64,000 nucleotides of DNA from a virus. The position numbers and the translations under genes are program-made. Shown here in pieces: positions 52,533 through 63,598 of the stretch; position 1 is the stretch's first letter; the number at the start of each line of letters is the position of its first letter. The notes beneath the pieces are model-generated. The model was given only the letters and a program-made list of their open reading frames with translations, was not told the origin of the DNA and made no database searches. Where the stretch lies: positions 62,001 through 126,000 of the IMG/VR virus record IMGVR_UViG_3300042465_007929, one strand, 5' to 3'.

Positions 52533-52609
52533 GTAAGTCGCTGAATATCAACGAGTTACGGCGGCAGAGCCGCCCCGCCTCCATAAGTCGTTGATAATCA
52601 AGCAGTTAT
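52533..52609 (+). repeat. twin-palindrome element R1
   Basis: Palindromes at 52533-52559 and 52583-52609 (50 bp apart, consensus half-site AAGTCGTTGAT) flank a GC core (GGCGGCAGAGCCGCC). Promoter P5 begins 91 bp downstream. Confidence 0.9.
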
Positions 52610-52699
52610 GAAGGGAGAAAGATCATGCCCCGAAAGCTTTGTCAAGAAAAAAGTGCAGAAAAAATGAGAAAAAAAAGATGAAAAAGATCAAAAAAGATC

Positions 52700-52728
52700 T
52701 TGCGACAATCGGGCTTTTCAGTTACTCT
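52700..52728 (+). promoter_or_regulatory. early promoter P5
   Basis: AAAAAAGATC before TTGCGA, N17, TACTCT; CTGGGC then ATG at 52735 (six bases). Confidence 0.75.
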
Positions 52729-52734
52729 CTGGGC

Positions 52735-53064
52735 ATGGAAACACTCCTTACCACTACCGCCCCAAACCTGAAAGCCGCTTATACCGCTGTCCCTCTTGAG
52801 ACAACAACAAAAACAACAGAAGGAAAAGTTGTTACTTGCTACTACGCAAAAGAACAAATCGTTTGCGACTATGGCTACAATCAAATAACAACCTACGAAA
52901 TTGGCGACAGAATCAATGGTGAGTATCGCAAAGATGGACTTGTCCAAGCTGATACTTACGGTTGCCTCACGACTAAAACAATCCCTTGGGAAAAGATCGT
53001 TACCCGCGAATATATCACGGTGCGCGAATACAAAACCACCACTTGGGAAATTCTCGATAAATAA
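52735..53064 (+). CDS. unknown 109-residue protein, leaderless start
   Basis: METLLTTTAPNLKAAYTAVP start, Thr/Tyr-rich and beta-like (ICDYGYN-type IVCDYGYNQITTYEIGDRIN, REYITVREYKTTTWEILDK). The start at the predicted transcript start is preferred to an upstream in-frame ATG inside the promoter region. No family recognised; first gene after R1. Confidence 0.65.
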   Translation: METLLTTTAPNLKAAYTAVPLETTTKTTEGKVVTCYYAKEQIVCDYGYNQITTYEIGDRINGEYRKDGLVQADTYGCLTTKTIPWEKIVTREYITVREYKTTTWEILDK

Positions 53065-53077
53065 ACGAAAAAAGATC

Positions 53078-53106
53078 TTGCTACCTGCTAAAAATTAACC
53101 TAGAAT
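53078..53106 (+). promoter_or_regulatory. early promoter P6
   Basis: TTGCTA, N17, TAGAAT; CTGCTC then ATG at 53113. Confidence 0.7.
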
Positions 53107-53112
53107 CTGCTC

Positions 53113-53301
53113 ATGACTGAAACACTACTTACCACTACTGAATTGCTCGACCTCGCTTGGAACCTCTACGACATCGTGGAAAACAAAGGCAATCATCTTC
53201 TCGAAAGTCTTTTGATTGATGTTGAAAAAGAACACGGCGAAAAAGTCCGTAGTCAAATTGAATACCTCTTGGAAGTCGAATGCAACATTCAAGACATGTA
53301 A
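53113..53301 (+). CDS. small acidic protein, leaderless start
   Basis: 62 residues, MTETLLTTTELLDLAWNLYD...VEKEHGEKVRSQIEYLLEVE: helical and acidic. The first residues METLLTTT/MTETLLTTT are like those of the 52735 gene, perhaps a shared translation-start context. Unknown family. Confidence 0.65.
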   Translation: MTETLLTTTELLDLAWNLYDIVENKGNHLLESLLIDVEKEHGEKVRSQIEYLLEVECNIQDM

Positions 53302-53320
53302 AAAAAGATCAAAAAAGATC

Positions 53321-53349
53321 TTGCTATAAGCTCGAAACTGAACTAAAAT
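53321..53349 (+). promoter_or_regulatory. early promoter P7
   Basis: TTGCTA, N17, TAAAAT; AACGCC then ATG at 53356. Confidence 0.7.
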
Positions 53350-53355
53350 AACGCC

Positions 53356-53499
53356 ATGACCACCCAATACAACGAAATGTTCGCCAAGTTCCAAAACGGC
53401 CAAATCACCGAAAAAGTCTGGTTCGACTTCTGCTTCGAAACACTGAGCCAGATCATGGAGGATAACAAGGACGTTTTTGTTCGCTTGAAAAATTGCTAA
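53356..53499 (+). CDS. 47-residue unknown protein, leaderless start
   Basis: MTTQYNEMFAKFQNGQITEK then VWFDFCFETLSQIMEDNKDVF and a basic end. Helical. Too short for family assignment. It is followed by a terminator that ends the R1 cassette. Confidence 0.6.
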   Translation: MTTQYNEMFAKFQNGQITEKVWFDFCFETLSQIMEDNKDVFVRLKNC

Positions 53500-53510
53500 T
53501 GTCAAGGAAA

Positions 53511-53536
53511 ATCTTCCCGAAAGGGGAGGTTTTTTT
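53511..53536 (+). terminator. rho-independent terminator ending the R1 cassette
   Basis: ATCTTCCC, GAAA, GGGGAGGT plus T run. Confidence 0.85.
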
Positions 53537-53593
53537 ATGCAAAAATCTGAAAATAAATCTTGACTGGGGCAAAAATGCCTGAAAATAAAAAGT

Positions 53594-53672
53594 CATAAGT
53601 CGCTAATACTCAATGAGTTATGGCGGCGGGGCGGCAGCGCCGCTGTAAGTCGTTGATAATCAATGACTTATG
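53594..53672 (+). repeat. twin-palindrome element R2
   Basis: Palindromes 53594-53622 and 53645-53672 flank GGCGGGGCGGCAGCGCC. Preceded by TGAAAATAAAAAGTCATAAG, which also precedes R8 and nearly R3; followed by CAAGTACTA and a TGTCAAGCGAAAAAG element. Confidence 0.9.
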
Positions 53673-53751
53673 CAAGTACTAGGTGCGCCGTAGTTAGGAT
53701 CTGTCAAGCGAAAAAGTGAAAAAAATAAATAAAAAAAACACAAAAAAGATC

Positions 53752-53780
53752 TTGCGCGGGGTCGATTCTTTCGCTATACT
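53752..53780 (+). promoter_or_regulatory. early promoter P8
   Basis: TTGCGC, N17, TATACT; TTGGGC then ATG at 53787. The best match to the early consensus. Confidence 0.75.
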
Positions 53781-53786
53781 TTGGGC

Positions 53787-53861
53787 ATGCGAGGGAGTGA
53801 ACGCCCTTTCAGAAAAGGACTCTCGGAGCTGGCTAGGTTGCTGAGGATAAAGTCGGGGTAA
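53787..53861 (+). CDS. possible 24-residue leaderless peptide (or part of a structured RNA)
   Basis: ATG sits at the P8 start site and a basic 24-codon frame follows (MRGSERPFRKGLSELARLLR...). The same stretch can fold as RNA, so coding is uncertain. No other gene lies between P8 and P9. Confidence 0.35.
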   Translation: MRGSERPFRKGLSELARLLRIKSG

Positions 53862-53895
53862 GATCCCCCAAATCGTGCCACTGCTTTTCTGAAAA
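53787..53895 (+). ncRNA. candidate structured small RNA driven by P8
   Basis: CAGAAAAG near 53809 pairs perfectly with CTTTTCTG near 53884, closing a domain that contains a CTC-GAG hairpin and a GGGG-CCCC hairpin (GGGGTAAGATCCCC). It begins at the strongest early promoter and contains no long frame. No known RNA family was matched by eye. Confidence 0.4.
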
Positions 53896-53901
53896 AACTT
53901 C

Positions 53902-53930
53902 TTGCACTACCTCTCAAAATTAACTACTCT
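53902..53930 (+). promoter_or_regulatory. early promoter P9
   Basis: TTGCAC, N17, TACTCT; TTGCAC then ATG at 53937. Confidence 0.75.
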
Positions 53931-53936
53931 TTGCAC

Positions 53937-54086
53937 ATGGAAAACTATAAAGGATTCAAATTCGACTACGATCAAGGCTTCATCACTTTCTATCATCCAG
54001 ACATGGAAGAGGGGAATGGAGATTGGAGCGGTTCCGCTTCCTGCATGGAAGATGCAATGGAAATCATCGACGAAATGACTTTCTAA
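53937..54086 (+). CDS. 49-residue acidic protein, leaderless start
   Basis: MENYKGFKFDYDQGFITFYH then PDMEEGNGDWSGSASCMEDAM and EIIDEMTF. A short beta hairpin followed by an amphipathic helix is suggested. Unknown family. ATG fixed by P9. Confidence 0.6.
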   Translation: MENYKGFKFDYDQGFITFYHPDMEEGNGDWSGSASCMEDAMEIIDEMTF

Positions 54087-54106
54087 GATAAAATCTAAAA
54101 AAGATC

Positions 54107-54135
54107 TTGCCATAGGTAAAAAAACAAACTAAAAT
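54107..54135 (+). promoter_or_regulatory. early promoter P10
   Basis: TTGCCA, N17, TAAAAT; TTCGCC then ATG at 54142. Confidence 0.7.
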
Positions 54136-54141
54136 TTCGCC

Positions 54142-54336
54142 ATGACCTTGGAAGACCAAATCACCCGCAACTCGAAAGAGTGCCTCGACTATCTCGCATT
54201 CTCAAACTACGAATTCAATCGGATTCTCAACCCTGAGATTTCCCCTCAACGCTGGGGGCTTGTATACGGCGCGGAGCTTGTCGAGAAAATGGAAGCGGCA
54301 TTCCAAGCAAAAAAAATGTTGACAATAGACGTTTAA
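54142..54336 (+). CDS. 64-residue unknown protein, leaderless start
   Basis: MTLEDQITRNSKECLDYLAF, then RILNPEISPQRWGLVYGAEL and a helical end. No known family. The last codons (ATGTTGACAATAGAC) contain the -35 of P11. Confidence 0.6.
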   Translation: MTLEDQITRNSKECLDYLAFSNYEFNRILNPEISPQRWGLVYGAELVEKMEAAFQAKKMLTIDV

Positions 54337-54347
54337 AATTCTAAACT
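54319..54347 (+). promoter_or_regulatory. early promoter P11 (within the previous gene end)
   Basis: TTGACA, N17, TAAACT; TTCCCCGAC (nine bases) then ATG at 54357. Confidence 0.7.
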
Positions 54348-54356
54348 TTCCCCGAC

Positions 54357-54530
54357 ATGAAAAACGCAATCCTCGAAAGTCTCTTCCTGCTTCTCTGCTC
54401 TATCCTCTGCGGTGGATTCCTCTTTCTCATCGAATGCCCCGCTTGGCTTCAAAATGGTTTCTTTGCAATGATGGTTGCACCTGCTCTCTGGTTCATTCCT
54501 CAAAGAATTTTGAGCGAGATGAAAAAATAA
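54357..54530 (+). CDS. small membrane protein (57 residues)
   Basis: MKNAILESLFLLLCSILCGG FLFL forms one hydrophobic helix and FFAMMVAPALWFIPQRI a second; the end SEMKK is basic. Two membrane spans, both ends likely inside. The start and end resemble those of the 54-residue membrane protein at 55126. It might act on the host envelope or be holin-like, but no evidence shows lysis activity. Confidence 0.6.
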   Translation: MKNAILESLFLLLCSILCGGFLFLIECPAWLQNGFFAMMVAPALWFIPQRILSEMKK

Positions 54531-54531
54531 G

Positions 54532-54560
54532 TTGACCAACTCCGAAAAATTCGTTACTCT
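54532..54560 (+). promoter_or_regulatory. early promoter P12
   Basis: TTGACC, N17, TACTCT; TTCCCCGAC then ATG at 54570. Same nine-base gap sequence as P11. The -35 begins one base after the upstream stop codon. Confidence 0.7.
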
Positions 54561-54569
54561 TTCCCCGAC

Positions 54570-54752
54570 ATGAAAACCGCTACATTCCAAATCACTGTTC
54601 ACTTCCCGAAGGCTAAATGCTATGACACATTCCTGATTGATGCCTCTGGCATTCGCTGGGCAATCGAAAATGGATCAAAAGCTGTCCAGATGAAATATCC
54701 ATCCATGATTGAAAAAGCAGATTTTGAGATCGTAACAGCAGAAAAAGTTTGA
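54570..54752 (+). CDS. 60-residue unknown protein
   Basis: MKTATFQITVHFPKAKCYDT, IRWAIENGSKAVQMKYPSMI and FEIVTAEKV: alternation of beta, helix and beta strands, like small dodecin-type or host-modulating phage proteins (a loose likeness). Similar opening beta pattern to the 56420 gene. Its TGA lies inside the -35 of P13. Confidence 0.6.
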   Translation: MKTATFQITVHFPKAKCYDTFLIDASGIRWAIENGSKAVQMKYPSMIEKADFEIVTAEKV

Positions 54753-54777
54753 CACCTGCAAAAAAATCCTTTATTCT
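54749..54777 (+). promoter_or_regulatory. early promoter P13 (overlaps the previous stop codon)
   Basis: TTGACA, N17, TATTCT; the ATG at 54800 is 22 bases on, so this mRNA would have a leader of about 16 nt (AATAAATAAC, no Shine-Dalgarno). Confidence 0.65.
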
Positions 54778-54799
54778 CACCTCGCAACCAATAAATAAC

Positions 54800-55054
54800 A
54801 TGACACTGACCTATAATACCCCATCCGCTAAAATTGCATCCGATCTTGTCGGAAAGACCGTTCGCTATCTCTCGAACAAATCCAAGACAACTCCTTCGGG
54901 TGTTCGCGTTTTCAAAATTGAAAGCGTGGAAAATGTTGACTTCGCCGCCAAGACTGGCAAGCGTTATGTAACCGTCCTTGCAAAGGACATCGACGACGCA
55001 GGAACGCCCAAGTATCGCAACTTGCACCTTGCAGGAATCGACTTGATCGTCTGA
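54800..55054 (+). CDS. 84-residue unknown basic protein
   Basis: MTLTYNTPSAKIASDLVGKT, VFKIESVENVDFAAKTGKRY, VTVLAKDIDD, KYRNLHLAGIDLIV: a beta-rich fold resembling small SH3/WYL-like RNA- or DNA-binding domains only in pattern. Start set by spacing from P13. Function unknown. Confidence 0.65.
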   Translation: MTLTYNTPSAKIASDLVGKTVRYLSNKSKTTPSGVRVFKIESVENVDFAAKTGKRYVTVLAKDIDDAGTPKYRNLHLAGIDLIV

Positions 55055-55087
55055 AGAAAAAAAGTCCTAAGCAAGACGAAAAAAGGC

Positions 55088-55117
55088 TTGACTCAAACCT
55101 ATAAAAAATTCTAAACT
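55088..55117 (+). promoter_or_regulatory. early promoter P14
   Basis: TTGACT, N18, TAAACT; CTCCCGAC (eight bases) then ATG at 55126. Confidence 0.65.
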
Positions 55118-55125
55118 CTCCCGAC

Positions 55126-55290
55126 ATGAAAAACATTATCCTTACTGCTCTGTTCTCCGCTTCTCACATTCTCATCTTCATGGTTGCCCGTGAATATCTG
55201 AACATGAAGGGCGAGCTAAACTTTCTTGTGTTCTGGTCAATGCTTGGCGTGACATGGGCCGCAGCGATTCGCGCTGAGTTGAAAAAATAA
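55126..55290 (+). CDS. small membrane protein (54 residues)
   Basis: MKNIILTALFSASHILIFMV is a membrane helix; LNFLVFWSMLGVTWAAAI a second; ends IRAELKK. Layout, first and last residues and promoter match the 54357 membrane protein, so the two may be paralogues. Unknown role at the host membrane. Confidence 0.6.
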   Translation: MKNIILTALFSASHILIFMVAREYLNMKGELNFLVFWSMLGVTWAAAIRAELKK

Positions 55291-55313
55291 TTTCTGGTAT
55301 AGTGTGTTAGGGG

Positions 55314-55344
55314 GGCTGGTTTCTGCGTAGTGGCGGAAACCAGC
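55314..55344 (+). terminator. hairpin after the membrane protein gene
   Basis: GGCTGGTTTC and GAAACCAGC arms with a 12-base loop, then CTTTCCTGTTT. Weak T tail; terminator or RNA hairpin. Confidence 0.5.
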
Positions 55345-55413
55345 TTTCCTGTTTATGAAAAAATAATTAAAAAAAGTCTTGACAACCTGCCAGCGCGTCT
55401 GAAATAAAAAAGT

Positions 55414-55492
55414 CATAAGTCGCTAAGTATCAACGAGTTACAGAGGCGGGGCCGCAGCGTCGCCGTAAGTCGTTAATAATCAACGAGTTACG
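55414..55492 (+). repeat. twin-palindrome element R3
   Basis: Palindromes 55414-55441 and 55465-55492 (51 bp apart) flank GGCGGGGCCGCAGCGTCGCC. Preceded by TTGACA-N17-AAATAA and followed by TGTCAAGCAAAA. Confidence 0.9.
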
Positions 55493-55544
55493 ACATGTCA
55501 AGCAAAATAATAAAAAAATAATTAAAAAAAACATCAAAAAGTTC

Positions 55545-55573
55545 TTGTCATGGGGTCAGATCTTCTTTATTCT
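55545..55573 (+). promoter_or_regulatory. early promoter P15
   Basis: TTGTCA, N17, TATTCT; CTGGGC then ATG at 55580. Confidence 0.75.
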
Positions 55574-55579
55574 CTGGGC

Positions 55580-55918
55580 ATGAGCTTGCTCCCATTCCCA
55601 TCCGATTCCGCCGACTACGAAGAATATTGCTCCGTCATGGAGGCGATGGCTGACGAGGCCGAAGCGTCCGCGCCTGATCCTGAGCCTGTGCATTCCGATG
55701 CTCGTTACACCGATGCCGAACTCTACCCCGAATCCCAGTATGGGGGCGATGGCCCTTGGAATGCCGACGAGGAGTCGGATGAGCTTCGCGCCCGTGAGGA
55801 TGCCGACTACTATGCCTCCATGCACGAGTGCGAGAATGAACCAGAGGATCGCTACCTTGACTCCCAATGGGAGGATGCCAATGAGTACGGCATGGAGGGA
55901 TGCTGCGGAGATTTTTGA
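55580..55918 (+). CDS. highly acidic 112-residue protein (possible DNA mimic)
   Basis: About 34 Asp/Glu against four Arg and no Lys. MSLLPFPSDSADYEEYCSVM, DADYYASMHECENEPEDRYL and GMEGCCGDF show acid and Tyr-rich composition. Phage DNA-mimic inhibitors have similar charge and size, but no sequence match to Ocr, ArdA or Ugi is seen. GC-rich codons. Leaderless start after P15; only gene of the R3 cassette. Confidence 0.6.
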   Translation: MSLLPFPSDSADYEEYCSVMEAMADEAEASAPDPEPVHSDARYTDAELYPESQYGGDGPWNADEESDELRAREDADYYASMHECENEPEDRYLDSQWEDANEYGMEGCCGDF

Positions 55919-55936
55919 AAAAAAGTCTTGACACGC

Positions 55937-56013
55937 CTAACTCGTTGAATATCAGCGAGTTACGGCGGCGGGGCGGCGCAGCCCCCATAAGTCGTTGATA
56001 ATGAGTGACTTAC
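55937..56013 (+). repeat. twin-palindrome element R4
   Basis: Palindromes 55937-55963 and 55986-56013 (49 bp apart) flank GGCGGCGGGGCGGCGCAGCC. A third related palindrome follows at 56029-56055 (CTCATTGATGCTTAATGTGT). Confidence 0.9.
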
Positions 56014-56077
56014 AGAGATTTTGTTTTCCTAACTCATTGATGCTTAATGTGTTATCTCCTATTTGTGGCATAATAAT

Positions 56078-56188
56078 TTGCAGCCTATTTGGGCTATAAA
56101 AATTTGCAGCCTATTTGTCAAGAAAAAAATCACAGCCTGTTAGGAATTTATTTTCATATTTAAGCAATAAAAGATTGCAGCCTAAAAG
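56078..56188 (+). repeat. TTGCAGCCTA repeats upstream of the 56213 gene
   Basis: TTGCAGCCTATTT at 56078 and 56104 (26-bp tandem units containing AGCCTATTTGGGCT), CACAGCCTGTTAGG at 56131 and TTGCAGCCTAAAAG at 56175. The last copy forms the -35 of P16, so these may be operator sites. Confidence 0.75.
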
Positions 56189-56203
56189 AGTTTCTGTCAT
56201 TCT
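56175..56203 (+). promoter_or_regulatory. early promoter P16
   Basis: TTGCAG, N17, CATTCT; CTCCTTGCC (nine bases) then ATG at 56213. Confidence 0.55.
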
Positions 56204-56212
56204 CTCCTTGCC

Positions 56213-56407
56213 ATGACATTTAAAGAACTCCTAGAATTAGAATCCTCATTCGACTCCTGCTTTAACGAACTGGTTTATCAGTTGAAACAAAAAGGAATGG
56301 ATCGTGAATACTATGCACTACTCACAGAAAAATATCGGTCGTTGTCTGCTCAAATTGGCACACAATTAGATTTGATTTCTCTTGACGAACAACCATTGAA
56401 AGACTAA
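56213..56407 (+). CDS. 64-residue helical protein
   Basis: MTFKELLELESSFDSCFNEL, VYQLKQKGMDREYYALLTEK, ending DLISLDEQPLKD. Two or three helices; no family. First of six genes in the R4 cassette. Confidence 0.6.
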   Translation: MTFKELLELESSFDSCFNELVYQLKQKGMDREYYALLTEKYRSLSAQIGTQLDLISLDEQPLKD

Positions 56408-56419
56408 CCTATCCCTGCC

Positions 56420-56584
56420 ATGAAAACATTCATTAGCTCCGTTACAATCAACATCGAAATCCAAGCAGAGAATCTAATCGACGCTGAAGAGAAATTCTTT
56501 GAAATGGATTTCGCCATCACTCATCCCGACGGTCAAGAAGCCGATTGGACTTTTATCGAACAAGAAATGGAAGAAAAATACTAA
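56420..56584 (+). CDS. 54-residue acidic protein
   Basis: MKTFISSVTINIEIQAENLI, DAEEKFFEMDFAITHPDGQE, ADWTFIEQEMEEKY. One beta pair then helix, acidic end. Resembles small beta-alpha proteins such as the 54570 and 58472 products. Twelve bases after the previous stop. Confidence 0.6.
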   Translation: MKTFISSVTINIEIQAENLIDAEEKFFEMDFAITHPDGQEADWTFIEQEMEEKY

Positions 56585-56585
56585 T

Positions 56586-56738
56586 ATGAAACTACTAAAG
56601 AAAATCTACAACAGGATCAATCCTCCACCACCATCAATCTATGGCAAGAACATCTTTGTTCAAAAAAGTTGGTTGACAAAACAGATGGAAGATGCTGTGT
56701 TCAATCAAGCAAAGAATCAAATCTATCAACTCCGATAA
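56586..56738 (+). CDS. 50-residue basic protein
   Basis: MKLLKKIYNRINPPPPSIYG, KNIFVQKSWLTKQMEDAVFN, QAKNQIYQLR. Basic start with a tetraproline; unknown. Starts two bases after the previous stop (TAATATG), so it is probably coupled. A longer frame beginning at 56499 was rejected because it overlaps the previous gene. Confidence 0.55.
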   Translation: MKLLKKIYNRINPPPPSIYGKNIFVQKSWLTKQMEDAVFNQAKNQIYQLR

Positions 56739-56742
56739 TGTT

Positions 56743-56964
56743 ATGTACCTCGCAACTCTTATCCATAATCAATCTCTTGGCTGCATTTTCATGTGTGACA
56801 CTTTTGAAAAGGCACTCACAAAGGCTCATTCAATCGCTGTCAATACTCTTGATCGGGATCTGCTTGAAAATGAACTCTTTGATCTCGAAGAAACTGGAGA
56901 GATTTTCGTTGAATATGATGACGACAATCAATACACTTTCTGCGTGGCACTAATTGAAGACTAA
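56743..56964 (+). CDS. 73-residue acidic protein
   Basis: MYLATLIHNQSLGCIFMCDT, FEKALTKAHSIAVNTLDRDL, then EETGEIFVEYDDDNQYTFCV. Beta-alpha-beta with a strongly acidic second half, possibly a small regulatory fold. Start chosen just after the upstream stop at 56738. Unknown family. Confidence 0.6.
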   Translation: MYLATLIHNQSLGCIFMCDTFEKALTKAHSIAVNTLDRDLLENELFDLEETGEIFVEYDDDNQYTFCVALIED

Positions 56965-56977
56965 ATAAAAAAATAAT

Positions 56978-57175
56978 ATGAAAAAAGATAATACACTGAA
57001 GCGTTGGTTGAAACTTGGATGGTCTGCTAGCTGGACTGAGCGTGAAGACAAAGCGCACAAGGCAGGCATTCTCCTCGGAGTTAAGCAGGGTCTTGAAATG
57101 GCTCGACAAAAGGAAAATAATCGTAAGCGATTGAGTTATCAAAAAAAACTTGCAAACAAGTTGACTAGCGTTTAA
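56978..57175 (+). CDS. 65-residue basic protein
   Basis: MKKDNTLKRWLKLGWSASWT, EREDKAHKAGILLGVKQGLE, then NNRKRLSYQKKLANKLTSV: very basic, a single long helix likely; may bind nucleic acid. The final codons (ACTTGCAAACAAG) hold the -35 of P17. Confidence 0.6.
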   Translation: MKKDNTLKRWLKLGWSASWTEREDKAHKAGILLGVKQGLEMARQKENNRKRLSYQKKLANKLTSV

Positions 57176-57178
57176 TCT
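57150..57178 (+). promoter_or_regulatory. early promoter P17 (within the previous gene end)
   Basis: TTGCAA, N17, TAATCT; TCGCCC (six bases) then ATG at 57185. Confidence 0.65.
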
Positions 57179-57184
57179 TCGCCC

Positions 57185-57511
57185 ATGTCAGTAAATCCTC
57201 AAGAGGCGACACTCTATTGTCGTATGGAACTCAAAAGCTATGGCTTAAAAGATCATTCCATTGTGTGGCGCGAATGGTCACACACTCTTGGGGAAGCATG
57301 GCCCTCTAATAAAGAAATACATCTTAGCTTTAGATGTTTAAAAAATAAAGAATTGCTGATCGAAATCATAAAACATGAAATCGCTCATGTGTTAGACCAT
57401 AAAGAACGTGGAACATTTTTGCGTAATGGTCGCAATGACTTTCACGGCGCAAACTGGAAAAAATGGTGCAAGGTTGTTGGCGTAAGACCTAGAAGGTTTA
57501 TCCCTGTATAA
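57185..57511 (+). CDS. SprT-like zinc metallopeptidase
   Basis: 108 residues. IIKHEIAHVLDH (HExxH at residues 64-68) with NDFHGANWKKWCKVVG (third ligand probably His87) is the SprT-like zincin signature, lacking the C-terminal zinc ribbon of full SprT proteins. IVWREWSHTLGEAWPSNKEI is the usual strand-turn before it. SprT-like proteases cut DNA-bound or damaged proteins; the phage target is unknown. Leaderless by P17. Its TAA is inside the first palindrome of R5. Confidence 0.8.
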   Translation: MSVNPQEATLYCRMELKSYGLKDHSIVWREWSHTLGEAWPSNKEIHLSFRCLKNKELLIEIIKHEIAHVLDHKERGTFLRNGRNDFHGANWKKWCKVVGVRPRRFIPV

Positions 57512-57584
57512 GTCGTTGATTATCAACGAGTTGCGGGGGCGCGGGGGCAGAGCCGCCATAAGTCGTTGATTCTTAGCGAGTTAT
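57506..57584 (+). repeat. twin-palindrome element R5
   Basis: Palindromes 57506-57534 and 57557-57584 flank GGGGGCGCGGGGGCAGAGCC. The first arm supplies the stop codon of the SprT-like gene. A TGTCAAGCAAAAAAG element follows. Confidence 0.9.
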
Positions 57585-57653
57585 AAACAATTAATTTCTT
57601 AGCCCCAAAAGCTTGTCAAGCAAAAAAGAATTTTATTTTTTATCAAATAGTTC

Positions 57654-57681
57654 TTGCAGGTATGGGGCATTCTGTTATTCT
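57654..57681 (+). promoter_or_regulatory. early promoter P18
   Basis: TTGCAG, N16, TATTCT; TTGGTCGCA (nine bases) then ATG at 57691. Confidence 0.7.
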
Positions 57682-57690
57682 TTGGTCGCA

Positions 57691-58005
57691 ATGAACGAAC
57701 CCTACGAACACTATCTAACTAACGGAGTCGATCTTCGTATTCCGCTCCATGCTCGCGCATACCTTAAAGCAGCAAGCCATTATCTTTCCAGTTGGCCGCA
57801 AGATTGGAGTGCAGAGCGTCTTTCCCTTGCTATCATGGCAGACGAAGATGAACCAGAAAGCCAAGCATTGAAAGACCGTAAAGAAGTTAAAGTTTGGGAG
57901 GCTCTAGACAGAGTTTGGGAGAATCTAGAAACAACGGAAGACGCTGGGCTTTATGTTGAAACAATGATTGCTAATCTTGCAGAAGACTTTATCCTTTTCA
58001 AATAA
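57691..58005 (+). CDS. 104-residue unknown protein
   Basis: MNEPYEHYLTNGVDLRIPLH, ARAYLKAASHYLSSWPQDWS, then acidic IMADEDEPESQALKDRKEVK and helical end. No recognised family. First of a six-gene run with tight overlaps after R5; the other five have no own promoter, so they form one transcript. Confidence 0.65.
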   Translation: MNEPYEHYLTNGVDLRIPLHARAYLKAASHYLSSWPQDWSAERLSLAIMADEDEPESQALKDRKEVKVWEALDRVWENLETTEDAGLYVETMIANLAEDFILFK

Positions 58006-58006
58006 G

Positions 58007-58225
58007 ATGAAAAACACTTTAGAAAAACTCAACGAAGTAAAAACATTTCTCAATACTTTGCTTGACAGCTCAAACGAAGAAGCGATAGACTTGCTCGTCA
58101 ACTATGGCGAAGACATCGAAGAAACATTACAAAAAGCCATTAACCAAATAATCTTATCAAAAACAAATGATCTCTGTATACCTACAAAACAAAACATATT
58201 CGACCTTGATTGCAAAATTTGCTGA
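58007..58225 (+). CDS. 72-residue helical acidic protein
   Basis: MKNTLEKLNEVKTFLNTLLD, EEAIDLLVNYGEDIEETLQK, ending FDLDCKIC with a CxxC-like CKIC. ATG one base after the previous stop (TAAGATG). Unknown family. Confidence 0.6.
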   Translation: MKNTLEKLNEVKTFLNTLLDSSNEEAIDLLVNYGEDIEETLQKAINQIILSKTNDLCIPTKQNIFDLDCKIC

Positions 58226-58328
58226 TGACGAAATCTATCAGCTTTGCTTTCCTACTTTACAAAAAGAAGCTAGCACATATGGTTGGATCATCACCGAAAC
58301 GAAAGACGAGAACCCCTTAGAAGATTAA
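58167..58328 (+). CDS. 53-residue unknown protein overlapping its neighbour
   Basis: A frame beginning inside the 58007 gene: MISVYLQNKTYSTLIAKFAD, DEIYQLCFPTLQKEASTYGW, IITETKDENPLED. Composition is protein-like (beta-alpha) and it fills the gap up to the next gene, so it is more credible than the alternative 31-codon frame from 58227. It overlaps the previous gene by 59 bases. Confidence 0.5.
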   Translation: MISVYLQNKTYSTLIAKFADDEIYQLCFPTLQKEASTYGWIITETKDENPLED

Positions 58329-58332
58329 AAGC

Positions 58333-58500
58333 ATGAAACATTTAGTATTTACAGTTACAAACGGCTTTGTAGAATTTCGCATGGGCGGACGCATGGGGAG
58401 TCATCCCCTTGGGGACGATTCGCCAGATTGGGTTATCGACTACTTAATCAAAATAATCAATCCAGACACACATGAAATCATACGATCCAAAACGAATTAA
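58333..58500 (+). CDS. 55-residue unknown protein
   Basis: MKHLVFTVTNGFVEFRMGGR, MGSHPLGDDSPDWVIDYLIK, IINPDTHEIIRSKTN. Starts four bases after the previous stop and overlaps the next gene by 29 bases. Unknown; beta start and helical middle. Confidence 0.55.
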   Translation: MKHLVFTVTNGFVEFRMGGRMGSHPLGDDSPDWVIDYLIKIINPDTHEIIRSKTN

Positions 58501-58660
58501 AGTAAAGGCAACAGTTATCATTGACATGGAAATCAATGACGGCTATACCCTTGAGGAAGCAATCGACAATCTTGTAGTCAATATGCACTGCAATCATACA
58601 GATTCTGCTTATGTGTTTGATAGTGAATTAACCTCTTACCAACCCCTATATCAATTATGA
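58472..58660 (+). CDS. 62-residue unknown protein
   Basis: MKSYDPKRIKVKATVIIDME, INDGYTLEEAIDNLVVNMHC, then SAYVFDSELTSYQPLYQL. The KVKATVxxDxE...GYTLEEA pattern is that of small phage beta-alpha-beta proteins of unknown role. Stop overlaps next ATG (ATGA). Confidence 0.6.
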   Translation: MKSYDPKRIKVKATVIIDMEINDGYTLEEAIDNLVVNMHCNHTDSAYVFDSELTSYQPLYQL

Positions 58661-58833
58661 CTGAAGAAATGCAATATGTAATCAATAGCCCTTATACAAG
58701 CTATTGGTTGAGGAATGCAATCCAAGAATGTCTTGCGCGTGATGCGCTGGATGCAAGAGCAGATGCAAAACTATTGTTTAATCTTTTAAACGATAGGCTG
58801 AACGAAATGCTTGACAAACATAAATCTGTTTGA
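58657..58833 (+). CDS. 58-residue helical protein
   Basis: MTEEMQYVINSPYTSYWLRN, AIQECLARDALDARADAKLL, then NDRLNEMLDKHKSV. All-helical, resembles small phage proteins with the SPYTSYWLRxA motif that I recall but cannot name. Last gene of the R5 cassette. Confidence 0.6.
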   Translation: MTEEMQYVINSPYTSYWLRNAIQECLARDALDARADAKLLFNLLNDRLNEMLDKHKSV

Positions 58834-58845
58834 TTCTCTTCCCCT

Positions 58846-58923
58846 GTAAGTCGTTGAAACTCAGCGACTTATGGCGGCGGGGCGGCAGCGCCGTTGTAAC
58901 TCGTTGATAATGAGTGAGTTACG
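58846..58923 (+). repeat. twin-palindrome element R6
   Basis: Palindromes 58846-58873 and 58896-58923 (50 bp apart) flank GGCGGGGCGGCAGCGCCG, almost the core of R2. Followed, as in R2, by CAAGTACTA and TGTCAAGCGAAAAAG. Confidence 0.9.
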
Positions 58924-59001
58924 CAAGTACTAAGACAGTAGTAGTTGGCGGGTGTCAAGCGAAAAAGAAAAAAGAATTTTCAGAAAAGATCAAAAAAGAT
59001 G

Positions 59002-59030
59002 TTGCAGTCCCACTCATAACGGGTTAATCT
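59002..59030 (+). promoter_or_regulatory. early promoter P19
   Basis: TTGCAG, N17, TAATCT. Here the ATG (59069) is 38 bases on, so a leader of about 32 nt ending ACCAATAAAAAAT is predicted, without Shine-Dalgarno. Confidence 0.65.
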
Positions 59031-59068
59031 TTCCCCGTCTCCAGTAAACAACTAAACCAATAAAAAAT

Positions 59069-59809
59069 ATGTCACTTATCATCTCAAGCAACAAAGTATC
59101 CGCCGAACAACTCGCCAGCGTCTTCACGCCAGCGAAAACTGATTCGCATCAGCCAATCGCTCACTCTGTCCTTGTCGATATGACCCGCGAAGCTCTCGAC
59201 CGTGTTGGCTTGCAAATCCGCGAGGAAGAGCATGGTCTTGCCAATGGCGGCTTGAACTACTTTGGTGGCTTTGCCCTCAAAGGTTCCGACATCTATTCGG
59301 CGGAACGTGAAATCGTTCTTGGTCTTCGCAATTCAAACAATAAGCGTTTCGCTGCTTCGATCTGCCTTGGCAATCGCATGATGGTTTGCGAAAACCTTTG
59401 CTTCTCGTCTGACGTGAAGCTGTCCCGCACTCATACAACGCACATCATGCGCGATCTTCCGCGCATCATTGCCGATGCCATGAGCCGCGTTGTCACTTCA
59501 TGGAATGACATGGAACAACGCATCGAAAGCTACAAGAACACCGAAATTTCCAGCCGCCGCGCTGAAAACATTGTTGTTGACTTGGCCGATTCAAAGGCTT
59601 TGCCAATCCGTGAAATTTACAACACCATTCAGGAATTTCGCAACCCTCGCCATGAGGATTTCAAGGGCGGAACCTTGTGGAGTCTTTACAACGCCGTGAC
59701 TGAAAACCTCAAAGGTTCTTGCTTTACCAAACTGCCACAGCGCACGATGGTAACGCAAAGCATCTTTGATCGTATCGCAAAGCCAGCTCAAATTTTGGTC
59801 GAGGTCTGA
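59069..59809 (+). CDS. DUF932-like phage/plasmid protein
   Basis: 246 residues. SREIVLGLRNSNNKR-type segment (AEREIVLGLRNSNNKRFAAS), ICLGNRMMVCENLCFSSDVK, and HTTHIMRDLPRIIADAMSRV match the DUF932 family common on phages and plasmids, whose function is not established. Its length is somewhat short for the family. It is the only gene of the R6 cassette and has a terminator, implying strong independent expression. Codon use is GC-rich. Confidence 0.75.
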   Translation: MSLIISSNKVSAEQLASVFTPAKTDSHQPIAHSVLVDMTREALDRVGLQIREEEHGLANGGLNYFGGFALKGSDIYSAEREIVLGLRNSNNKRFAASICLGNRMMVCENLCFSSDVKLSRTHTTHIMRDLPRIIADAMSRVVTSWNDMEQRIESYKNTEISSRRAENIVVDLADSKALPIREIYNTIQEFRNPRHEDFKGGTLWSLYNAVTENLKGSCFTKLPQRTMVTQSIFDRIAKPAQILVEV

Positions 59810-59824
59810 TCCGTATGCCGCGAG

Positions 59825-59851
59825 CCTCGCCCCGAAAGGGGCGGGGTTTTT
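59825..59851 (+). terminator. terminator after the DUF932-like gene
   Basis: CGCCCC, GAAA, GGGGCG plus GGGTTTTT. Confidence 0.9.
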
Positions 59852-59877
59852 CGCGTTGTCAAGAAAAAACTTTCAGT

Positions 59878-59956
59878 CATAACTCACTAAGTATCAAGGA
59901 GTTACGGGGGCGCGGGGGCCGCGCTGTCCTAAGTCGTTGATAATCAACGAGTTACG
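59878..59956 (+). repeat. twin-palindrome element R7
   Basis: Palindromes 59878-59905 and 59929-59956 (51 bp apart) flank GGGGGCGCGGGGGCCGCGCT. TGTCAAG elements lie on both sides (59856 and 59990). Confidence 0.9.
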
Positions 59957-60024
59957 CTGTCAACAAAAAACATAAAAAATCTCCTGTCAAGTAAAATAAA
60001 ATAAAAAATAAATGCAGAAAAGTC

Positions 60025-60052
60025 TTGTGCATCTCTCGCGTTTTGCTAACCT
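60025..60052 (+). promoter_or_regulatory. early promoter P20
   Basis: TTGTGC, N16, TAACCT; GTGGGCCAC (nine bases) then ATG at 60062. Confidence 0.6.
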
Positions 60053-60061
60053 GTGGGCCAC

Positions 60062-60769
60062 ATGAACTTGCTCAACTCTGGAAACTCCAAAACTCGTAAA
60101 GGTGAAAAAAAAGGCTGGACGACGTTCGGCATTCACCTAGCTCCCGCCTCTCTGTCTGGTTTCAATGTTTGCGACTCGTCAAGTGCGGGTTGCCGTTGGG
60201 CTTGCCTCAACACTTCGGGGCGTGGCGCAATGTCTTCCGTGCAACGCGCACGAATTGCAAAAACAAAATTGTTCTTTACTGACAAGCGGCTTTTCATGTC
60301 GATGCTCTTCAAAGAAATCACAGCAGGAATTAAGAAATCCGCAAAGACTGGAATGCGTCCTTGTTTCCGTCTCAATCTGACTTCTGATCTGCCTTGGGAA
60401 AAAATAAAGTTCGATGGATGCACTGTCATGGAAGCATTCCCAAACGTGCAATTTTACGATTATTGCAAGTCACCAGAACGCATGACTAAATTTCTGGCGG
60501 GTGAAATGCCAGCAAACTATCACTTGACCTTTTCCCGCAGTGAAGAGAATGGCGATGTTGCTTTGGCTTTCCTCAAGTCTGGCGGCAATGTTGCAATGGT
60601 CTTTCGTAATTCTCTCCCCTCTTCTTACTTTGGCCATGAGGTAATCGACGGAGACGAAACCGATTTGCGCTTCCTCGACGGTTCGGGCAAGATCATTGGT
60701 CTGAAAGAAAAGGGTCTTGCTAAAAAAGACTCGACAGGCTTTGTCCTCGAACCTACACTTGCATCATGA
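60062..60769 (+). CDS. GP88-like phage protein with Cys cluster
   Basis: 235 residues. NSKTRKGEKKGWTTFGIHLA, GFNVCDSSSAGCRWACLNTS (Cys37, Cys44, Cys48), and RARIAKTKLFFTDKRLFMSM match the mycobacteriophage gene product 88-like family found in many phages. The Cys triad suggests a metal site; role unknown. The start is placed at the P20 transcript, three residues inside a longer open frame. Confidence 0.75.
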   Translation: MNLLNSGNSKTRKGEKKGWTTFGIHLAPASLSGFNVCDSSSAGCRWACLNTSGRGAMSSVQRARIAKTKLFFTDKRLFMSMLFKEITAGIKKSAKTGMRPCFRLNLTSDLPWEKIKFDGCTVMEAFPNVQFYDYCKSPERMTKFLAGEMPANYHLTFSRSEENGDVALAFLKSGGNVAMVFRNSLPSSYFGHEVIDGDETDLRFLDGSGKIIGLKEKGLAKKDSTGFVLEPTLAS

Positions 60770-60876
60770 AGCCTTGGCAATACCTGATTCTGTTTTTTAC
60801 TTTTCTGATTCTCGCTTTCCATCGAGACAGAAAAAACATCTTCAAGCGTGAACTTAACCCAGAAAATTTTGAATGA
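60766..60876 (+). CDS. 36-residue membrane peptide
   Basis: MKPWQYLILFFTFLILAFHR then DRKNIFKRELNPENFE: one membrane helix, positive-inside tail. Its ATG overlaps the previous stop (ATGA) and its stop overlaps the next ATG, so it is translationally linked on both sides. Confidence 0.55.
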   Translation: MKPWQYLILFFTFLILAFHRDRKNIFKRELNPENFE

Positions 60877-61070
60877 ACCTTTTTCAATTCATCGAAGATG
60901 TTGATGCTGGCAAGTTCTTTGTTTCTGCCGTGCATGATGGTTGCAGCGTAACAAACATTGCGATTTATCCCATAGTTGATTCTTTAGTATATCCTGCGCT
61001 ACTCATGGACTTGCATTCGATGCAGCCTCTGATTGATATGGTAGAGGATAAACTTGCGGAAGTTGCATGA
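60873..61070 (+). CDS. 65-residue unknown protein
   Basis: MNLFQFIEDVDAGKFFVSAV, HDGCSVTNIAIYPIVDSLVY, then helical acid end. No family. Last gene of the R7 cassette, followed by a terminator. Confidence 0.6.
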   Translation: MNLFQFIEDVDAGKFFVSAVHDGCSVTNIAIYPIVDSLVYPALLMDLHSMQPLIDMVEDKLAEVA

Positions 61071-61081
61071 GATAAAATTGT

Positions 61082-61106
61082 CCACCTCGCAAGAGGTGGC
61101 TTTTTT
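61082..61106 (+). terminator. terminator ending the R7 cassette
   Basis: CCACCTC, GCAA, GAGGTGG then CTTTTTT. Confidence 0.92.
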
Positions 61107-61163
61107 GTGAAAATTTCTTAAAATAATTCTTGACAAGCGAAAAAAGTTCTGAAAATAAAAAGT

Positions 61164-61241
61164 CATAAGTGACTCATTATCAACGAGTTAGGGAGGCGGG
61201 GCCGGGACGCGCCCGTAAGTCCTTTAGTATCAGTGAGTTAT
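61164..61241 (+). repeat. twin-palindrome element R8
   Basis: Palindromes 61164-61191 and 61215-61241 (51 bp apart) flank GGAGGCGGGGCCGGGACGCG. The arms are the most diverged of the family. P21 begins only 28 bp downstream. Confidence 0.85.
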
Positions 61242-61268
61242 AAAAGAAAAAAAATAATAAAAAACTTG

Positions 61269-61297
61269 TTGACGTTGTGAGCTGACTGGGTTAATCT
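61269..61297 (+). promoter_or_regulatory. early promoter P21
   Basis: TTGACG, N17, TAATCT; CTCCCCGTC (nine bases) then ATG at 61307. Confidence 0.75.
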
Positions 61298-61306
61298 CTC
61301 CCCGTC

Positions 61307-61600
61307 ATGAAAAAACTATTCTTTGAATACACGCTTGCTGCCTTTCCAATCTACGACGAAGGAAAGAAACTCTTTTCAGAAGTCATCGTCGAAGACGATA
61401 TGGATGACGATTGCATTCTTGAAACCATCTTTGCTTGGTGCAATAATGGATCGCGCAGAGAATGTCAAGCATTTCTTGATTCAAATCTTCGCTCTCTTTC
61501 CGTCGGTGATTATGTTACTATTGGCACTTGCTTTTCCGACGCTCGCAAGTATCGTTGTGAATCGCAGGGCTGGACTCACTTCCTTGCAAGACTCCACTAA
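61307..61600 (+). CDS. 97-residue unknown protein
   Basis: MKKLFFEYTLAAFPIYDEGK, VIVEDDMDDDCILETIFAWC, RSLSVGDYVTIGTCFSDARK, ending GWTHFLARLH. Looks like a small beta-alpha domain with an acidic loop. No recognised family. First of five genes in the R8 cassette. Confidence 0.65.
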   Translation: MKKLFFEYTLAAFPIYDEGKKLFSEVIVEDDMDDDCILETIFAWCNNGSRRECQAFLDSNLRSLSVGDYVTIGTCFSDARKYRCESQGWTHFLARLH

Positions 61601-61604
61601 TACC

Positions 61605-61982
61605 ATGAAACAAATCCAAGTATACTACAACTTCCGCAAAAAGCTTTTCTCCGTTCAAGAGAAGATCAATGGCAAGTGGAAGGTCGTTGAACACACAAAC
61701 GAAATCTTTATCCGTAATGCCACGTTCAAGGTGAGCGAGGCAGGGCGGCAAAGAGTAATCAAGGAGAAGCGCAAAAATGTTCATGCAAAGATCGTGGGTG
61801 AGCGTTTCCCATTCATCCCCAAGTCTTTTGTCTACCGCGACGAAGTTTCTTACAACCCTTACAAGGGACCAAACTTTATGGTAGTATCAGAACAAAAACC
61901 TCTTGACTGGGCAAAATATGTCACTATTCTCAACGGCAAGGTGATCGCACTGATCCCCGAATTCAAAGGAACAAGAATCTAA
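61605..61982 (+). CDS. 125-residue basic unknown protein
   Basis: MKQIQVYYNFRKKLFSVQEK, FIRNATFKVSEAGRQRVIKE, KRKNVHAKIVGERF, KYVTILNGKVIALIPEFKGT. The first half (YYNxRKxxFSVxxxxxGxWK) fits a recurrent phage protein pattern of unknown role. The ATG four bases after the upstream stop is chosen over longer frames that run through the previous gene. Confidence 0.65.
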   Translation: MKQIQVYYNFRKKLFSVQEKINGKWKVVEHTNEIFIRNATFKVSEAGRQRVIKEKRKNVHAKIVGERFPFIPKSFVYRDEVSYNPYKGPNFMVVSEQKPLDWAKYVTILNGKVIALIPEFKGTRI

Positions 61983-61993
61983 CAACTAAAACT

Positions 61994-62341
61994 ATGGGCC
62001 TCGATCAATACGCAAAAGTTCGCAATCCAAAAACGCAAGAAATGGAGGAGTTCCACTACTGGCGCAAACATAACGCTCTGCATGGGTGGATGGAAAATCT
62101 CTGGAAGTCCAAGGGTAATACTGGCGAGTTCAACTGCGAACCAGTCCAGCTTTCCCATGCCGATCTTGATTCACTCAAGAAGGATCTTATGGCAAGCAGC
62201 TTGCCAGAGACAAAAGGATTCTTTTTCGGTTCTGATAGCAACCTCGACGATTCGCGTCTGATGGATGACCTTCACTTCATCGCACAAGCAAAAGAACATC
62301 TTGACGTAGGGATGGAAGTCGCCTACGATTCTTGGTGGTAA
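61994..62341 (+). CDS. conserved phage/bacterial protein of the MGLDQY type
   Basis: 115 residues. MGLDQYAKVRNPKTQEMEEF, WRKHNALHGWMENLWKSKG, NCEPVQLSHADLDSL, LPETKGFFFGSD, and a C-terminal VAYDSWW are the fixed marks of a family widespread in phages, often mislabelled as phosphoglycerate kinase. Function is not known. The spacing and length match the family. Confidence 0.75.
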   Translation: MGLDQYAKVRNPKTQEMEEFHYWRKHNALHGWMENLWKSKGNTGEFNCEPVQLSHADLDSLKKDLMASSLPETKGFFFGSDSNLDDSRLMDDLHFIAQAKEHLDVGMEVAYDSWW

Positions 62342-62366
62342 GATAAATCTCCAACAAACAAACACT

Positions 62367-62633
62367 ATGATACAAATTGCACAAAAAATGACAATGTGGG
62401 AAGAGTTCAATATCGAAGACGATATGCAAGAATCTCTTTTGAGCTATCTCAAAGACTTTCCCAACGCCGATTATAATGACCTTTATAACTGGGCTTGTGA
62501 CAATGGTTGCGATCCAGAGTCTCACACTCTGGAAGGAACCGAAGAAGTTCTAACGCCAGAAGATAATGGTGGGCAATCTACTCTTGAAATCACCGCATTC
62601 CCAAACAATAAAATCATTTTTCAAAACGCATGA
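62367..62633 (+). CDS. 88-residue acidic protein
   Basis: MIQIAQKMTMWEEFNIEDDM, LKDFPNADYNDLYNWACDNG, then ITAFPNNKIIFQNA. Acidic; unknown. Stop overlaps the next ATG. Confidence 0.6.
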   Translation: MIQIAQKMTMWEEFNIEDDMQESLLSYLKDFPNADYNDLYNWACDNGCDPESHTLEGTEEVLTPEDNGGQSTLEITAFPNNKIIFQNA

Positions 62634-62800
62634 ACCACATTGACTTTATCATGGCCTACGAAGGTGGGGAAATCACAACAGAAGAAGAATTGATCGCTGG
62701 CTTTCAAGCTATGATCGACGACGGCTCTGTCTGGGAACTTCAAGGGTTCTATGGGCGAACTGCTCGCGGCTTGATTGATTGTGGCGATTGCCACGCATAA
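62630..62800 (+). CDS. 56-residue conserved small phage protein
   Basis: MNHIDFIMAYEGGEITTEEE, LIAGFQAMIDDGSVWELQGF, YGRTARGLIDCGDCHA. This IMAYExGE...WxLQGxYGRxAxxLIxxGxC pattern is common in phages as an uncharacterised small protein. Overlaps the previous stop by four bases. Last gene before R9. Confidence 0.7.
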   Translation: MNHIDFIMAYEGGEITTEEELIAGFQAMIDDGSVWELQGFYGRTARGLIDCGDCHA

Positions 62801-62813
62801 AAGCTTGACTCTC

Positions 62814-62891
62814 CTAACTCGTTGGTTATCAGCGAGTTATGGAGGCGCGGCCCCCTCTTCGTCATAACTCTTTGATTATCAGTGACTTATG
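62814..62891 (+). repeat. twin-palindrome element R9
   Basis: Palindromes 62814-62841 and 62863-62891 (49 bp apart) flank GGAGGCGCGGCCCCCTCTTC. Confidence 0.9.
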
Positions 62892-62897
62892 TCAATT

Positions 62898-62926
62898 CAT
62901 AAGTTGTTGATGCTTAGTGTGTTATG
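62898..62926 (+). repeat. third palindrome of R9, overlapping a promoter
   Basis: CATAAGTTGTTGATGCTTAG followed by its complementary half. It covers the -35 and spacer of the promoter at 62904-62932. A relative lies after R4 at 56029-56055. Confidence 0.8.
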
Positions 62927-62932
62927 TATAGT
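62904..62932 (+). promoter_or_regulatory. promoter inside the third palindrome
   Basis: TTGTTG, N17, TATAGT. Transcription would start near 62939, at the first GTTTATTTAG repeat. Confidence 0.55.
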
Positions 62933-62935
62933 ATT

Positions 62936-63138
62936 GTTTATTTAGATCATGGGTATTCACAGGTAGAAAAGAGTAGGGTAGCGTTGACGAACTCATCCGC
63001 CGACGCTACCCTTGCAGCATCACCATTGCCGCTTTACGTTAGTGAAAATTTGTTTATTTAGGTTCGTTTTATTCACAGGGAAAAATGGTAGGGAGTTTAT
63101 GAACTGAGGAAAACTAATGAAACCTCCTCCCTACCATT
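62936..63138 (+). ncRNA. two tandem hairpin-forming elements (candidate small RNAs)
   Basis: Two diverged units about 116 bp apart, each beginning GTTTATTTAG and containing TATTCACAGG then GTAGGG. Unit 1 has a 9-bp perfect stem (GGGTAGCGT, 62976-62984, with 63003-63011). Unit 2 has a 12-bp perfect stem (AATGGTAGGGAG, 63084-63095, with 63127-63138). No protein-coding frame is credible. The stems differ in sequence but keep position, which suggests RNA structure. Confidence 0.5.
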
Positions 63139-63193: not shown

Positions 63194-63270
63194 TGGTGAT
63201 TCAGACAGAACTCGAATCTGTAACCTACACATTAGAAGTGTGTTGCTCTATCCAATTGAGCTACTGAACC
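63194..63270 (-). tRNA. tRNA-Arg (anticodon UCU), CCA encoded
   Basis: Minus strand: acceptor GGTTCAG pairs with CTGAATC (one G-U), D arm GCTC/GAGC, anticodon arm ACACA/TGTGT with loop CTTCTAA, T arm ACAGA/TCTGT with loop TTCGAGT, discriminator A and encoded CCA. It reads AGA, the Arg codon favoured by the AT-rich late genes. Confidence 0.93.
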
Positions 63271-63331
63271 TTTATTTGGTGAATGAGAAATCGTAGATGG
63301 CTCACTCACTTGTAAATATAATAACGGATCT

Positions 63332-63598
63332 TTAGGCTTTTGTCAATTTAATTTTTGCCATATATTTCGCCCAGCTTCCTCCGTTATATTTGATTGCTGG
63401 TTCATCTAGATATTGGGTAGCTGCATCAAGCATAGCCTGAGCATAAAAGTATTTAGCTTCCCAGTAATTGGATGTCTTACCTTCGCGCCATGCTCCTACA
63501 CGTTCATCATATTGACGAATCTTAAAGTAGTGACCACGATTTTCAATCTCGACATTTTCCTTGGCATGTCGCACTGCTGCTGCTTTAGTTATCTTCAT
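63332..63598 (-). CDS. 88-residue unknown protein
   Basis: MKITKAAAVRHAKENVEIEN, RGHYFKIRQYDERVGAWREG, NYWEAKYFYAQAMLDAATQY, then a basic end (AKIKLTKA). Short beta hairpin with a helix; unknown family. It overlaps the upstream gene by 14 bases and is on the opposite strand to the small-gene cassettes, so it belongs to the next transcription unit. Confidence 0.6.
   Translation of the reverse strand: MKITKAAAVRHAKENVEIENRGHYFKIRQYDERVGAWREGKTSNYWEAKYFYAQAMLDAATQYLDEPAIKYNGGSWAKYMAKIKLTKA

Follow-up and report, generated by a model that had tools for sequence, protein, structure and literature searches.

On balance, and with modest confidence, we read this locus as a compact junction of DNA control sites where transcription units converge, rather than as a small-RNA gene controlled by a palindrome. 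It lies where the plus-strand early genes stop (reading frame 62631–62801) and minus-strand genes start (63332 onwards) in a 139,990-base IMG/VR virus entry, in which genes for terminase, DNA polymerase III alpha, DnaB helicase and primase were identified by profile. The window, meaning the whole stretch of 64,000 nucleotides analysed here, comprises bases 62001–126000 of that record, and positions are those of the window unless the record is named (Table 1). Replication and head proteins are common to the six long contigs compared (104–148 kb), with identities of roughly 22–79%. We consider the predicted family-wide paired operator described below a more interesting discovery than the RNA proposed earlier; the value for the locus itself lies in a correction, in that its repeated heads are probably DNA boxes and its hairpins are most likely part of the junction's tRNA side.

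Table 1. Coordinates of the features discussed (window positions).
Feature	Position	Strand	Remarks
Island with all nine palindrome pairs	52534–62889		First palindromes at 52534, 53596, 55416, 55938, 57509, 58847, 59880, 61166 and 62815
Second composite site: palindrome pair, third palindrome (56030–56054) and box-like repeats	55938–56123		Upstream of a short plus-strand reading frame
Palindrome 1 of pair, TAACTCGTTGGTTATCAGCGAGTTA	62815–62839		Same place kept in L014, L016, L018 and L017
25-bp linker between paired palindromes	62840–62864		G+C-rich, as in the family
Palindrome 2	62865–62889		Starts exactly 50 bp after palindrome 1
Third palindrome, TAAGTTGTTGATGCTTAGTGTGTTA	62900–62924		Good left half, degenerate right half
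Weak promoter-like TTGTTG-N17-TATAGT	62904–62932	+	TTG element not kept in relatives
Box A, TTATTTAGATCATGGGTATTCACAG	62938–62962	+	25-bp bipartite repeat
Hairpin 1	62975–63012	-	10-bp stem, C.A mismatch, 6-bp stem with 2 G.U pairs; UUUU at 62970–62967 next on the minus strand
Small hairpin	63014–63032	-	Directly precedes hairpin 1 when read on the minus strand; L014 shows one compensatory change
Box B, TTATTTAGGTTCGTTTTATTCACAG	63054–63078	+	25-bp bipartite repeat
Hairpin 2	63084–63138	-	Core stem, then UUUUU (63085–63081) on the minus strand; terminator-like but long loop; absent in L014/L015
tRNA-Arg, anticodon TCT	63194–63270	-	Just beyond the interval of the first-pass annotation, which did not use it
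tRNA-Arg promoter TTGACA-N17-TATTAT	63318–63346	-	Conserved in L014/L015; variant in L018

Scanning the 140-kb contig with TAASTCGTTGATNATCAACGASTTA at up to 6 mismatches recovered 20 palindrome sites, against 1 in one mononucleotide shuffle, and these resolve into nine pairs, whose starts lie exactly 50 bp apart, plus two extra third sites (one at 62900). Such pairs are conserved in the relatives L014, L015, L016, L018 and L017, and each of the six long contigs holds 4–10 of them. A pattern scan of viral contigs yielded at least 119 stretches, which were pooled with earlier loci for pair counts, and the relatives together contain at least 345 distinct pairs: at least 269 spaced at 50 bp, at least 44 at 48, at least 19 at 51 and at least 13 at 49. 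This count required spacings of 48–51 bp, and an open count made without that requirement also peaks at 50. Paired palindromes at hundreds of distinct sites, and in six of six long contigs, point to an old, family-wide control system, and the 50-bp spacing rule leads directly to the prediction of a cooperative or tetrameric binder.

Two inverted copies of the half-site TAASTCGTTGA, each near one consensus, make up 582 distinct sites among the matches listed. Across these 582 palindromes (again among the matches listed) the arm positions are independent of one another, with paired counts equal to or below those of shuffles; positions 8, 10 and 12 pair less than in shuffles, and excess pairing is seen nowhere. 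Arms that do not covary argue for the DNA operator of a dimeric protein and against a hairpin, and we predict that the palindromes are operators through which such a protein would bind and control transcription. The linkers have a mean G+C content of 88% (269 linkers, among the matches listed), and folding them as hairpins gave no clear excess. Among the matches listed, 276 pairs had flanks of 300 bp, and in 193 of these at least one flank contains a promoter of the form TTG-N16-18-TAnnnT a short way ahead of a start codon, an arrangement present in 12% of random 300-mers. On the plus strand between 52700 and 61320, TTG-N17-TAnnnT ends about 6–8 nt before the ATG of several early genes, whose mRNAs are therefore predicted to have little or no leader. 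A promoter downstream of one palindrome pair leads into a 24-codon reading frame (53788–53865), at a place with no longer obvious gene.

A search for the binding protein among the conserved proteins gave no clear candidate. The paired module was found in none of the bacterial genomes searched, the named phages searched for the palindrome pair offered nothing convincing, and a literature search with the palindrome sequence turned up unrelated titles only. Single palindromes are present in Fibrobacter, Verrucomicrobiales, Chitinophagales, Microscillaceae and others. The Microscillaceae MAG Prado074 (6.8 Mb; L168, L185–L192) carries 589 copies of a palindrome of like form at up to 2 mismatches, the reversed control having 0; an exact pattern related to it occurs there in 300 copies and is absent from 147 other genomes drawn from its phylum.

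At the locus itself, the third palindrome, already noticed in the first-pass annotation, is a genuine member of the family of the adjoining pair. It recurs at the equivalent position in L014, L015, L016, L018 and L017, its left half good and its right half degenerate across the relatives, as might be expected of a weaker third operator; third palindromes also occur in several relatives, mostly 34–44 bp from a pair. It had further been placed over a promoter, and it does cover the −35 element and most of the spacer of that sequence, but the promoter is the weaker part of the claim, matching only 8 of 12 consensus positions and falling below the scan cutoff. Its TTG-N16-18-TAnnnT form is absent from L014, L016, L018 and L017, and in L014 this holds even where hairpin 1 is kept. 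The sole promoter-scan match between 62600 and 63450 is on the minus strand (63346–63318, 11 of 12 consensus matches), and this promoter would read the tRNA-Arg and then both hairpins.

The heads of what had been described as ~116-bp tandem units do begin 116 bp apart, but strong identity is confined to one 25-bp box, TTATTTRG-N10-ATTCACAG, which is also found without hairpins; past the box, similarity between the window units is weak and extends over no more than about 25 nt (25 of 1000 dinucleotide shuffles are as good). The box occurs four times in the record, each time in intergenic DNA (window 62938 and 63054; record 127329 and 127363), against a shuffled mean of 0.35, and arrays of the same or similar boxes lie in intergenic DNA of relatives, including L016 and L018 at this very locus, where both hairpins are lacking. 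We regard the repeated heads, as a sequence family, as a candidate DNA site of a second kind. A search of viral contigs with the exact box pattern returned only three matches, in coding DNA and judged to be chance, and the T4-type late promoter TATAAATA was rejected as an explanation of the boxes, being rare upstream of late genes.

Past the window end, at record 127329–127420, a divergently oriented pair of GTGTAA motifs flanks two boxes, and a conserved basic protein of 91 aa is encoded downstream on the minus strand. GTGTAA is a candidate late promoter motif in its own right: many genes outside the early island, a large share of them structural, have it about 15 nt ahead of the start codon (for example upstream of the minus-strand genes starting at 39578 and 45311), and AAGTGTAA is about 42-fold enriched. 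GTGTAA-N6-14-ATG is found in the five other long contigs too. A minus-strand protein at 43437–44150, conserved in six of six long contigs, gives a weak match to sigma-70 region 2 (E 0.00025, below the curated cutoff) and is a candidate sigma factor for this motif.

Both stems of the first-pass annotation exist, and both fold significantly on either strand, in the window better on the minus strand (for the 77 nt around hairpin 1, −33.5 kcal/mol on the minus strand and −27.7 on the plus); for hairpin 1 of L014, energy and z-score are weaker on the minus than on the plus strand. When hairpin 1 and its small neighbour are compared between the window and L014, 22/22 and 21/22 pairs form on the minus strand, and 19/22 and 17/22 of the same pairs on the plus, a comparison that leans to the minus strand because the tested structure came from the minus-strand fold. 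Two of the five altered pairs are compensatory double changes; among one-sided changes, two keep the pair only on the minus strand and one only on the plus. The suggestion of a structured RNA is thus borne out to the extent of this little covariation with a relative, which fits the minus strand better than the strand originally proposed. The hairpins are lineage-specific, and the covariation is thin for that reason: beyond the window hairpin 1 is found only in the two near-identical relatives L014 and L015, and hairpin 2 in no relative. U-runs follow the hairpins on the minus strand only, U5 after hairpin 2 and U4 a short gap past hairpin 1. A terminator scan limited to loops of 3–8 nt reported none here; the hairpin 2 loop is outside that range, and the hairpin 1 U-run begins some nucleotides past its stem.

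The arrangement to which we lean, if only slightly, combines a triple operator and DNA boxes with adjoining tandem minus-strand hairpins that would serve the tRNA transcript as terminators or 3′ structures; in it, binding, regulation and termination are all predicted from sequence. At the head of many early transcription units in the phage family, a dimeric protein would occupy both 25-bp palindromes of a pair spaced at 50 bp, the third palindrome serving it as a weaker third operator, and the repeated unit starts would be two copies of another DNA site, the bipartite box. The hairpins would be read from the minus strand, by transcription from the promoter at 63346–63318 through the tRNA-Arg, hairpin 2 and then hairpin 1, and, each with a U-run after it, may act as tandem terminators or as protective 3′ structures. 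Termination at the hairpins would stop tRNA transcription from reaching the operator region and the convergent early genes.

It is conceivable, though rather unlikely, that the hairpins are not terminators but a stable structured minus-strand RNA with a function of its own, co-transcribed with the tRNA-Arg and processed from its transcript, such as a small stable phage RNA or a tRNA-like element that has degenerated. The hairpin 1 loop is unchanged in L014 and the stem carries compensatory changes there, and the folding z-scores in the window are about −3.5 to −4.6 on the minus strand. Hairpin 1 of L014 also has about 25 nt, or one arm, in common with hairpin 2 of the window (6 of 1000 shuffles are as good), with differing partner arms, so that an element may have been duplicated and its partner arms altered. 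However, conservation is about the same in the flanks as in the loop, and the structures are known only in this phage and L014/L015, a search with the hairpin 1 loop having found only those two relatives and other matches judged to be chance. Both hairpins are absent in L016 and L018 beside the same tRNA position, and Rfam models at gathering score matched only the tRNA and neither hairpin.

We consider improbable the proposal from which this work departed, namely a plus-strand small RNA of two tandem hairpins, starting at GTTTATTTAG and under the control of the third palindrome and the protein that binds it. TTGTTG-N17-TATAGT does conform to the loose form of early promoters in this phage, the palindrome overlaps it, L014, L016 and L018 have a TATA-like element close by, and the hairpins fold on the plus strand too. 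Yet this weak promoter has no counterpart in the relatives, GTTTATTTAG belongs to the repeated DNA box, which occurs without hairpins, and both the pair changes and the U-runs favour the minus strand, where a strong promoter would drive the tRNA-Arg toward the hairpins. Moreover, a plus-strand transcript from 62904–62932 would run antisense into and through the tRNA-Arg, no terminator having been found before it, and the decoy or regulator role suggested for such an RNA finds no support. That the palindromes and boxes instead form a replication origin or partition site, built of iterons and inverted repeats, seems very improbable to us: tandem short repeats do lie beside the palindromes, and TTATTCACA in box B presumably resembles a DnaA box, but nine separate pairs are spread over 10 kb, and most family sites have a promoter and start codon near at least one side. 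The control junction with minus-strand hairpins is thus the reading we retain. For the family as a whole we offer only tentatively the possibility that, throughout a family of large uncultivated phages, a protein reads two 25-bp palindromes 50 bp apart across a G+C-rich linker and controls an island of small early genes, that special loci have in addition a third operator and the other kind of 25-bp box, and that here a lineage-specific, tRNA-linked structured RNA lies between the boxes.

Several known systems bear comparison with this arrangement. In lambda OR1-OR2-OR3, two neighbouring operators are accompanied by a third close to the promoter, and our sites likewise consist of two adjacent operators with a third near a promoter, but differ in their 50-bp start-to-start spacing and their many copies per genome. 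The tRNA cluster of phage T4 includes small stable RNAs transcribed along with the tRNAs; here too structured RNA segments lie beside a phage tRNA gene, as predicted from sequence and with no Rfam match. On the minus strand, stems with a U-run after them recall intrinsic (Rho-independent) terminators, from which hairpin 2 differs in its long loop and hairpin 1 in a U-run displaced from the stem. REP elements fold as single-stranded DNA hairpins, and our palindromes are like REPs and BIMEs in being short and intergenic, here paired, and in that a similar palindrome occurs hundreds of times in one Microscillaceae genome; unlike those of REPs, however, the arms here do not covary, and in relatives the pairs lie at the same genome positions. 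Identity with REP elements, which have a conserved tag at one end according to the available part of the source (PMC3733652), was rejected, as it requires a conserved hairpin with covarying arms and the 582 sites among the matches listed show none. The stoperators of cluster A mycobacteriophages such as L5 are described, in the part of the source available, as asymmetric sites bound by a monomeric repressor (PMC9283540). Identity with them by that definition was likewise rejected: our sites are 25-bp palindromes in pairs 48–51 bp apart, with a G+C-rich linker and in one island, and no repressor was found. What they do have in common with L5 stoperators, as these appear in the same part of that source, is that many copies of one site are distributed through a phage genome (PMC9283540).
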